Below are positions 1,768 through 6,039 of a DNA stretch of 64,000 nucleotides, piece by piece (within the stretch, counting starts at the first letter, position 1; the number at the start of each line of letters is the position of its first letter). The notes under the pieces are model-generated. The model had not been told where the DNA came from. It did no database searches and saw nothing but the letters and a program-made list of their open reading frames with translations. The position numbers were made by a program, and so were the translations under genes. This stretch comes from Phytophthora colocasiae (lineage: Eukaryota > Oomycota > Peronosporomycetes > Peronosporales > Peronosporaceae): positions 620,001 to 684,000 of the forward strand of contig JAGKQI010000020.1 in assembly GCA_018806915.1 (NCBI GenBank). Direction: 5' to 3'.

Positions 1768-1958
1768 GCTGCTTGGTTGCTGTACACTGTGCTGTATACA
1801 CTCCGCGACAAATTAATCCGGCCACCCCTACTTTTAGCCGCTACTCAGTCAATTTTTATGGTATCGGGTTGCTGTTTGAGTATGATCTGTCTGATGTACG
1901 ACAGAGCCCAGGACTTGTGTTAACAACCGCAGTTTTGCGGTTTGAAGCATACCTCACA

Positions 1959-4900
1959 TCTCAACACAGTAGGCTAGTCTCTACCCTCTAGGCTAGTGCC
2001 GTGTCTGTGTGTCTGTGTGTCTGTGTGTCTGTTCAACGTCTTAGCGCATAAACCTGCGTAGCTACCTGTCTCTCCATTTTGTACATGTACGTATTCTATA
2101 CTGTATTTTCCCATAGTGTAGCCTATCCCTACCGAGCGAAGCAAAGGTAGCAACTCGGCCAACCGGCGCGCGCCGAAGGTGTGGCGCCGGTGGTGAGTAG
2201 TGGGGCGAACTGGAACAGTGAGCCCCACGGGTTTCAACCAAACACATATAAACCGCCCGCAAAAGCGGGCGGCACTCGACTAAAATACATCCTACCGAGC
2301 GAAGCGAAGGTTCCTCGGCCAACTGGCGCGCGCCGAAGGTGTGGCGCCGATGGTGAGTAGTGGGGCGAACTGGAACAGTGAGCCCCACGGGTTTCAACCA
2401 AACACATACAAACCGCCCGCAAAAGCGGGCGGCACTCGGCTAAAATACATCCTACCGAGCGAAGCGAAGGTAGCACCTCGGTCAACTAGCGCGCGCCGAA
2501 GGTGTGGCGCCGATGGTGAGTAGTGGGGCGAACTGGAACAGTGAGCCCCACGGGTTTCAACCAAACACATACAAACCGCCCGCAAAAGCGGGCGGCACTC
2601 GGCTAGTCTCTACTCTCTAGGCTAGTGCCGTGTCTGTGTGTCTGTGTGTGTGTTCAACGTCTTAGCGCATAAACCTGCGCAGCTACCTGTCTCTCCATTT
2701 TGTACATGTACGTATTCTATACTGTATTTTCCCATAGTGTAGCCTAACCCTATGTTCTAGACTGCTCTCAGGAATGACAAAATTACAAATATAGCCCACT
2801 AATGATAACCCTCTCTATGGCCTCTGATTGGTCCGCACACCCGGCCACAAAATATTTAATTGGACAAAATGAAGCTAAGTACGATTAAAATGCTGAGGTG
2901 CCCCGCTTTACAGACCGGTGATTGGCTAAAATGCATCCTACCGAGCGAAGCGAAGGTAGCACCTCGGCCAACTGGCGCGCGCCGAAGGTGTGGCGCCGAT
3001 GGTGAGTAGTGGGGCGAACTGGAACAGTGAGCCCCACGGGTTTCAACCAAACACATACAAACCGCCCGCAAAAGCGGGCGGCACTCGGCTAAAATACATC
3101 CTACCGAGCGAAGCGAAGGTAGCACCTCGGTCAACTAGCGCGCGCCGAAGGTGTGGCGCCGATGGTGAGTAGTGGGGCGAACTGGAACAGTGAGCCCCAC
3201 GGGTTTCAACCAAACACATACAAACCGCCCGCAAAAGCGGGCGGCACTCGGCTAGTCTCAACACAGTAGGCTTATCCCGTGTCTGTGTGTCCGTTGTGTG
3301 TGTGTTCAACGTCTTAGCGCATAAACCTGCGTAGCTACCTGTCTCTCCATTTTGTACATGTACGTATTCTATACTGTATTTTCCCATGGTGTAGCCTATC
3401 CCTATGTTCTAGACTGCTCTCAGGAATGCCAAAATTACAAATATAGCCCACTAATGATAACCCTCTCCATGGCCTCTGATTGGTCCGCACACCCGGCCAC
3501 AAAATATTTAATTGGACAAAAGTAAGCTAAGTACGATTAAAATGCTCGCTTTACAGACCGGAGATTGGCTAAAATGCATCCTACCGAGCGAAGCGAAGGT
3601 AGCACCTCGGCCAACTGGCGCGCGCCGAAGGTGTGGCGCCGATGGAGAGTAGTGGGGCGAACTGGAACAGTGAGCCCCACGGGTTTCAACCAAACACATA
3701 CAAACCGCCCGCAAAAGCGGGCGGCACTCGGTCTAAAATTGCTTCGATAAGTACGAAATAGTAGCTGCGAGCTCGCGAGCTCGCAGCCCCCACTGGTGAT
3801 TGGCTAAAATACATCCTACCGAGCGAAGCGAAGGTAGCAACTCGGCCAACTGGCGCGCGCCGAAGGTGTGGCGCCGATGGTGAGTAGTGGGGCGAACTGG
3901 AACAGTGAGCACAACGGGCTTCAACCAAACACATACAAACCGCCCGCAAAAGCGGGCGGCACTCAGCTAAAATTGCTTCGATTAGTACGAAATAGTAGCT
4001 GCTAGCTTGCGAGCTCGTAGCCCCCACTGGTGATTGGCTAAAATACATCCTACCGAGCGAAGCGAAGGTAGCACCTCGGCTAACTGGCGCGCGCCGAAGG
4101 TGTGGCGCCGATGGTGAGTAGTGGGGCGAACTGGAACAGTGAGCACCACGGGATTCAACCAAACACATACAAACCGCCCGCAAAAGCGGGCGGCACTCGG
4201 CTAGTCTCAACACAGTAGGCTTATCCCGTGTCTGTGTGTCCGTTGTGTGTGTGTTCAACGTCTTAGCGCATAAACCTGCGTAGCTACCTGTCTCTCCATT
4301 TCGTACATGTACGTATTCTATACTGTATTGTCCCATGGTGTAGCCTATCCCTATGTTCTAGACTGCTCTCAGGAATGCCAAAATTACAAATATAGCCCAC
4401 TAATGATAACCCTCTCCATGGCCTCTGATTGGTCCGCACACCCGGCCACAAAATATTTAATTGGACAAAAGTAAGCTAAGTACGATTAAAATGCTCGCTT
4501 TACAGACCGGAGATTGGCTAAAATGCATCCTACCGAGCGAAGCGAAGGTAGCACCTCGGCCAACTGGCGCGCGCCGAAGGTGTGGCGCCGATGGTGAGTA
4601 GTGTGGCGAACTGGAACAGTGAGCCCCACGGGTTTCAACCAAACACATACAAACCGCCCGCAAAAGGGCGCGGGCGAAAATACATCCTACCGAGCGAAGC
4701 GAAGGTAGCACCTCGATCAACTGGCGCGCGCCGAAGGTGTGGCGCCGAGTAGTGGGCGAAGAACAGTGAGCCCCACGGGTTTCAACCAAACACATACAAA
4801 CCGCCCGCAAAAGCGGGCGGCACTCGGCTTGGACAAAAATAAGCTAAGTACGATTAAAATGCTTTGATAAGTACGATCTCGCAGCTTTTACAGACCGGTG

Positions 4901-5069
4901 ATTGGCTAAAATGCATCCTACCGAGCGAAGCGAAGGTACCTCGGTCAACTGGCGAGCGCCGAAGGTGTGGCGCTGATGGTGAGTAGTGGGGCGAACTGGA
5001 ACAGTGAGCCCCACGGGTTTCAACCAAACACATACAAACTGCCCGCAAAAGCGGGCGGCACTCAGCTAG
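1959..5069. mobile_element. Tandem array of four non-autonomous Helitron-like units
   Basis: The array lies inside the left inverted repeat of the Tc1-like element. The intact right repeat shows the empty site, CACA|TACA, so the array sits exactly between A (1958) and T (5070) with no target duplication. It starts TCTCAACACAG and ends CACTCAGCTAG. The last 11 nt follow a near-perfect GC-rich hairpin (arms 5039-5046 and 5051-5058, AAAA loop). Internal CTAG|TC junctions at 2606/2607, 3255/3256 and 4204/4205 define four head-to-tail units of 648, 649, 949 and 865 bp. These are the textbook Helitron marks (TC start, CTRR end, hairpin 10-12 nt upstream, A|T insertion). No Rep/helicase is encoded, so it is non-autonomous. 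Confidence 0.82.
2120..5069. repeat. Eleven copies of a ~160-bp subrepeat ending in a GC hairpin
   Basis: A block beginning TACCGAGCGAAGC recurs at about 2130, 2293, 2453, 2939, 3102, 3588, 3817, 4050, 4531, 4688 and 4918. It runs through GGTGTGGCGCC and GTTTCAACCAAACACATA. Each copy ends with the hairpin CCGCCCGCAAAAGCGGGCGG followed by CACTCGGCTA. One copy (about 4661) has a damaged hairpin. Copies inside a unit continue with CTAAAATAC or CTAAAATTG; copies at unit ends finish CTAG. The internal copies therefore look like duplicated Helitron 3' ends. Open frames through them on the minus strand follow the repeat and are not credible genes. Confidence 0.85.
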
Positions 5070-6039
5070 TACAACAAACTGAAAAGCACATCCGTCCCAA
5101 CTTCTGGCCACCTATCACCATACAAATTGTCATATAGTTGTATCACAATGATAGCTCTATTTGTGTATTAGTAGTGAGTTTTCGCTCCTTTATTCTCGAT
5201 CACCTCGATGCAGCGTCGCGTCATGGACTCAATGAGCTTCTCAAGTGTCGACACTTCAATAGTTCTAAGCATCTAAAACCGCTGCGGCACAGATCCATAC
5301 TGGCGTCCATTGGGATAAACTTTCCGAGCCATCAGTGCCCACAAGTTTTCTATCGGGCTTAGATCGGGGGATCGTGCAGGCCAATCGAGCCCTGCTCGTC
5401 GAAGAAGTCTCTAAATCATTACCGAACCCCCTCCATTCTGTCGTATGACCGTCGTTCGTGCGGGACGACGCACGTCATGCCAGTAGTGTTGCTTTCCATC
5501 AAGCCTGAGCGTACGCTCGATAGCGTCACGAGAACGCTTAGCTTTTTTCGCAATTGTCCGAATAGTAGGCCGCCTTCTCTCAACCCGCAAATGCTCCCAC
5601 GCTCTTCATCTCTCAGCCACAGTGCCATACCACGGCCTAATTGCAAACTGTCCTCAGCACCAAGCTGCCACGCGCTCCCCACCGGCGGTGGCACCGCCGC
5701 TGTGGACGGTTGGACGAACAAAATCACAAATGCAACTATCATTGTGATACAGCTATATGACAATTTGTATGGTGATAGGTGGCCGGAAGTTGGGACGGAT
5801 GTGCTTTTCAGTTTGTTGTATGTGAGGTATGCTTCAAACCGCAAAACTGCGGTTGTTAACACAAGTCCTGGGCTCTGTCGTACATCAGACGGATCATACT
5901 CAAACAGCAACCCGATACCATAAAAATTGACTGAGTAGCGGCCAAAAGTAGGGGTGGCCGGATTAATTTGTCGCGGAGTGTAGGATCAGACGCGAAATAG
6001 AGGTAGCCACTGAATTGATAGATAAGATAAAGAGTTGCG

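Follow-up and report, generated by a model that had tools for sequence, protein, structure and literature searches.

The block at positions 1959 to 5069 of the window, by which we mean the whole 64,000-nucleotide stretch of Phytophthora colocasiae DNA analysed here, consists of four arrayed canonical Helitrons, short and non-coding, and interrupts one arm of a likely Tc1-like element. Copies across the genome suggest that such arrays grow by exact landing of new copies at the front edge combined with local copying. We put at about 60% the probability that canonical Helitrons inserted stepwise at the 5' edge, between the host A and the resident T, with local amplification in addition, and consider this a better reading than insertion of one concatemer. 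The features are as follows.

1797 to 5982, no strand assigned: decayed, likely Tc1-like element with long terminal inverted repeats (from inverted repeats, arm alignment and a transposase remnant)
1959 to 5069, plus strand: Helitron array, between A 1958 and T 5070
1959 to 1977, plus strand: 5' stub of 19 nt, ending CTAG
1959 to 2606, plus strand: unit 1, 648 bp, stub included
2607 to 3255, plus strand: unit 2, 649 bp
3256 to 4204, plus strand: unit 3, 949 bp
4205 to 5069, plus strand: unit 4, 865 bp, with the array 3' end CTCAGCTAG
5039 to 5058, plus strand: hairpin that closes the array, with one G-T pair and 11 nt between it and the end
5820 to 5982, no strand assigned: right arm of the likely Tc1-like element, with the uninterrupted site (from inverted repeats, arm alignment and genome matches)

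The array begins with TC and finishes with CTAG, the final G of CTAG falling at 2606, 3255, 4204 and 5069, and at the internal junctions CTAG is followed directly by TC, with the units head-to-tail. The terminal hairpin reads CCGCCCGCAAAAGCGGGCGG and stands 11 nt ahead of the CTAG end; each of the four units closes in this way with a hairpin, 11 nt and CTAG. An earlier sequence-only reading of this DNA had described these termini, the hairpin and the three junctions separating four spacerless units, and all were found as described. The units hold no RepHel gene. A module of about 160 nt that bears the hairpin is repeated inside them, and the array has 11 hairpins, with CTAG next after 4 and CTAA or other letters after 7. 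The 7 are the inner hairpins of the module and the 4 the unit-final ones; CTAA also satisfies the CTRR rule.

Unit 1 starts with the 19-nt piece TCTCAACACAGTAGGCTAG, followed by TCTCTACCC, which makes an extra CTAG|TC at 1977|1978. This stub has the other 5' subtype (TCTCAACACAG... as against TCTCTACYC...) and is joined through GGCTAGTC. It is perhaps the leftover of a lost or collapsed former first unit, and the GGCTAGTC junction fits loss of that unit by microhomology.

The block, whose coordinates are exact, lies in the left arm of the carrier element. The arms pair as 1797-1959 with 5820-5982 (99% complementary) and 5070-5172 with 5718-5820 (92%). When a script removes the block, the left arm, which begins at 1797, continues into 5070 and beyond and aligns with the mirror arm with 0 differences across the insertion site, for 70 nt on its upstream side and 35 nt downstream. 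The empty site is CCTCACATACAACAAACTG and the occupied site CCTCACA|TCTC...CTAG|TACAAC, consistent with insertion between A (1958) and T (5070) without target duplication; a common T leaves the insertion point ambiguous by 1 base, so that A|T is fixed only by the internal junctions and by what is conventional for Helitrons. Genome-wide, the uninterrupted 25-mer is present at 55 sites (46 perfect, 1 with one mismatch, 8 with two; control 0), mostly as paired opposite arms. One of these is the window's own right arm, the only arm within the window that carries it. With 55 matches the empty site is well controlled, and the proposal that one inverted repeat is interrupted while the other preserves the site, with no difference between them there, is upheld. 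Decayed transposase pieces lie on the minus strand between the arms; one of three pieces tested, containing DWPARSPDLSPIENLWAL, gave a weak DDE_3 match below the cut-off, and another gave an unrelated weak match. TA-like ends were also seen. On this small body of evidence the carrier is likely Tc1-like.

We then searched the assembly (92.5 Mb, 105 contigs) with the termini of the window family, here family 1. The 3' end gave 488 matches with at most one mismatch and the reversed pattern 0, which excludes chance. Tandem junctions of two types numbered 156 and 58, in all 214 with at most two mismatches (controls 0); 2 of the 214 read CTAC in place of CTAG. Chance repeats were rejected as an explanation, reversed-pattern controls giving 0. 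A plain satellite was also rejected, because units bear both Helitron ends and arrays are placed at A|T, as was random-orientation nesting, because, in the subset of 100 of the 488 3' ends that were listed by position, neighbours no more than 10 kb apart share a strand in all 69 pairs.

Family-1 5' ends not preceded by G (n=76) follow A in 72 cases, C in 4 and T in none. Two of the four C-preceded ends are CTAC junctions, and 14 of the 72 A-preceded ends, all within one stretch on C50, may include inner junctions with altered 3' ends. Among exact family-1 3' ends one has a next base other than T, and the extracted arrays have their fronts after A and their ends before T. Copies elsewhere thus bear out the termini and the A|T placement expected from the sequence-only reading. 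At one locus (L003, C44:944304) a unit seems to start at A|T within a unit of the same family (ATTCTA|TCTCTACCC), as a nested insertion.

RepHel-encoding relatives, which the sequence-only reading had proposed to look for, are present. Helitron Rep domains (150 matches scored) lie amid the arrays, on several shared contigs and strands. The two whole long units that we examined, on C34 (6673 bp) and on C44 (6467 bp), have CTAG|TC on either side and a 3' end of matching type. The C44 unit (L062) has a 1226-aa frame with Rep (Helitron_like_N), PIF1 and PIF1-2B domains; no endonuclease domain of the Helentron/Helitron2 type was among the 8 Pfam families matched in this frame, and the remaining frames of the unit had no Pfam match. 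The C34 unit, whose coding region is broken across frames, belongs to a row of about 6.67-kb steps. Among the best 120 of 3960 matches, the nearest full-length named relatives come from P. infestans and P. ramorum, proteins with 69% identity, which points to a Phytophthora-like host. With TC/CTRR ends, a 3' hairpin, A|T insertion without duplication and RepHel in related long units, the array is, judged by its sequence, part of a canonical Helitron family, and its short units are probably mobilised by RepHel proteins that their long relatives in this genome encode. On C30 (G000:C30:1165037-1200459) lower-scoring Rep matches stand in a one-strand row, possibly a further tandem RepHel family.

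Spacerless CTAG|TC junctions together with a single empty site could mean that replication read past the terminator several times and that one multi-unit concatemer inserted in a single event, and bat and plant tandem arrays have been interpreted in this way in published accounts (PMC5876387, PMC4067079). A fresh event of this kind leads one to expect closely similar units, and the window units are only 91-97% alike over their full length, about as distant from each other as from units elsewhere. Comparing the core (first 150 plus last 165 nt of a unit), units 1, 3 and 4 have their best match in another array, and unit 2 has its best match in unit 1. Judged by itself, the window array may go back to a concatemer so old that its units have drifted apart.

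Homogeneous arrays do exist elsewhere. On C58, seven units that are each 506-507 bp long and differ by 0-11 mismatches are followed by one 717-bp unit at the 3' end, and on C44 units 3 to 8 are 99.2-99.9% alike. Near-identical neighbours of a single family are thus present in some arrays and absent from the window array. Full-length median likeness, with units of at least 2000 bp omitted (3 of 64), is 97.3% for adjacent pairs (43), 97.3% for other pairs in the same array (57) and 96.8% between arrays (1730), and pairs at least 99% alike make up 11 of 43 adjacent pairs versus 6 of 1730 between arrays. The nearest relative lies in the same array for 29.3 of 84 units (core) or 35.5 of 84 (full length), versus 5.1 in shuffles; here and in the age comparison below, 5 of 89 units were omitted by the same length limit. 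The Rep domains have a median likeness of 99.7% within contig clusters (15 pairs) and 98.6% between them (285 pairs), as judged from 25 of 30 fetched loci, five being set aside by choice, where 'within' refers to a contig cluster, which need not be one array. This is clear evidence that local amplification occurs alongside, and read-through or another form of it is likely for homogeneous arrays such as C58.

Junctions between families also bear on the concatemer. A second family, which has a 5' end and a 3' hairpin with CTAG of its own, occurs solo at A|T (L073) and in tandem with itself in 3 places. Its 5' ends (n=17) follow A in 10 cases and CTAG in 7; with 0 of 17 after a host G, usual insertion at a 3'-side G|T was rejected. 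Family 1 directly adjoins a family-2 5' end in 7 exact places and 1 variant on C55, in all 8, where random A|T insertion would give about 0.003 (a rough estimate using window AT content); adding one base to make the family-2 5' pattern stricter left matches on C55 alone. One circle cannot make these eight junctions. Given the two-family junctions and the distance between the window units, which are no closer than units elsewhere, we consider a single read-through concatemer unlikely as the source of the window array. The interpretation put forward in the sequence-only reading therefore holds in part: the Helitron identity stands, and homogeneous arrays elsewhere agree with read-through, but the 91-97% likeness of the window units and the cross-family junctions do not.

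In the stepwise reading, a first Helitron would land between A and T, and the host A with the T of the resident TC would still make AT. Later Helitron intermediates would insert at this 5' edge and so give spacerless head-to-tail CTAG|TC, even across families, and local re-copying (re-insertion of a neighbour copy, read-through or unequal exchange) would add near-identical runs in some arrays. CTAG|TC without spacer is also the product of canonical A|T insertion at a resident 5' edge, and array growth was most likely stepwise at that edge. The edge would also be the site that Rep cuts to launch transposition, which may explain its frequent use. A more specific proposal is that resident 5' ends are preferred docking sites, where the Rep cut at A|TC serves as acceptor and arrays grow at the front across families with the oldest unit at the 3' end; we hold this tentatively, at somewhat less than even odds. 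Helraiser forms circles with CTAG|TC junctions, but its authors report a lack of local hopping (PMC4778049), so docking is not favoured in that system.

Alternatively, ends from separate circles may have been joined by Rep ahead of integration, or Rep may have ignored the inner terminator and so moved mixed composites that already existed. Both families have a final GCTAG and an initial TC in common, and in about 11.7% of Helraiser events the sequence flanking the 3' end is reported to be carried along (PMC4778049). Free joining predicts equal orders, however, and family 1 stands before family 2 in the 8 cases above, with the reverse found 1 time among 45 exact family-2 3' ends (two-sided sign test 0.039). 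The composites in which both ends were read (C6, C31, C54 and C57) have family-2 units of 2.2-2.4 kb and flanks beyond family 2 that all differ. Over all eight junctions, of which 7 were compared, the family-1 neighbours (475-938 bp) are 95-99% alike and differ by 1.4-4.7%. The composites thus differ in both parts and are not recent copies of one, and we judge this explanation very improbable.

Other Helitron-like 5' ends also follow family-2 3' ends without spacer (L085-L088, L093-L098, L100, L101, L103 and L106, on C53, C58, C82, C84 and C97). In 5 cases these read TCTACCTCCCAGTAAGATC..., and in 9 cases they read TTTCCC[AG]CCACCTAAAATC..., starting with TT and not TC. These varied starts indicate that 3' ends are common to the units while 5' ends differ.

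Growth at the 5' edge would place the oldest unit at the 3' end. Taking likeness to units elsewhere as a proxy for youth, we compared the first and last extracted units, which are not always the true array ends, in 20 of the 23 labelled arrays, the 20 being those with at least 2 units. The first unit was closer than the last to units elsewhere in 17, 16 and 16 of the 20 arrays over the core and in 16, 16 and 13 over the full length. Ordered-pair tests gave 0.01, 0.065 and 0.039 (core) and 0.014, 0.012 and 0.35 (full length), 2 of the 6 being above 0.05. From unit 1 to unit 4 of the window, one core measure falls steadily (0.992, 0.984, 0.977, 0.969), and the same measure over the full length does not (0.977, 0.979, 0.977, 0.973). 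Long arrays such as that on C44 have no steady age trend, and several arrays are incomplete. Unit age thus appears to rise from 5' to 3', as a weak to moderate tendency.

This polarity is not predicted if the arrays go back to a chance or initial dimer that unequal exchange or slippage during replication then expanded and reshuffled. Such expansion accords with the likeness within arrays and with alternating two-unit blocks on C54 (684/905/684/981 bp; G000:C54:1234044-1239259) and C83 (660/1280/660/1282 bp; G000:C83:699491-706448), which suggest that unit pairs were copied together. It cannot create the first exact junction or the cross-family junctions, and as a general account we find it distinctly improbable. 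That the arrays are an assembly artefact is hardly credible: they are repeats, judged here from the assembly itself, but many contigs, some as long as several Mb, carry them internally, and their flanks are distinct and their units diverged.

Whether such tandems arise by read-through or by insertion beside a resident copy has, according to the published accounts, been debated since at least 2008. With more than 200 spacerless junctions, mixed families and an empty-site control, this genome makes the choice testable and supplies a large natural test. If the 5' edge is a preferred target, both array growth and the common strand of neighbours would be explained, and a CTAG|TC tandem would not automatically be proof of concatemer replication.

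Arrays of this kind are already known. Published accounts explain the tandem arrays of plants, bat and silkworm by bypass or by rolling-circle amplification (PMC4067079, PMC5876387, PMC12628747); for those of Myotis and Bombyx the termination signal is said to have been bypassed (cited in PMC4067079 and PMC5876387). The Myotis and Bombyx arrays are head-to-tail like the present ones, but here a second route is suggested by the mixing of families and by their order. In bat and maize, Helitrons that are only distant relatives have also been reported as immediate neighbours (via PMC4067079 and PMC5876387). The plant centromeric arrays of Xiong et al. 2016, as described in PMC12628747, likewise consist of tandem units, but their copies are described as truncated, with one 3' end common to all and many different 5' ends, whereas the units here retain both ends. 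An active wheat Helitron likewise combines TC and CTAG termini with a preference for AT, and its hairpin stands 11 nt ahead of the end (PMC13286980). Three tandem Helitrons in Metarhizium acridum, for which both routes were weighed, are a single fungal case of the non-canonical Helitron2 type, unlike the canonical arrays here (PMC5148889).

The Phytophthora infestans proto-Helentron has a RepHel without endonuclease, Helitron structure and A|T insertion (PMC4067079). It and the present family are both oomycete RepHel elements without endonuclease, alike in type and only possibly of one family, and the available text of its description mentions no tandem array. Our literature search found no paper on tandem Helitron arrays in Phytophthora, and in the literature searched we did not find described, for an oomycete, this scale, mixing of families, long RepHel and short units together, or order bias. 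The closest precedent is a single maize pair of unlike Helitrons with a spacerless CTAG|TC junction, for which Du et al. 2008 (PMC2267711) proposed canonical insertion at the AT of host A and resident 5' T, the published account leaving the order undecided between a 5'-edge AT and a 3'-edge GT. Edge insertion was thus already proposed in 2008 for that one pair; the junction here is the same, but it recurs hundreds of times, joins two families and has an order bias.
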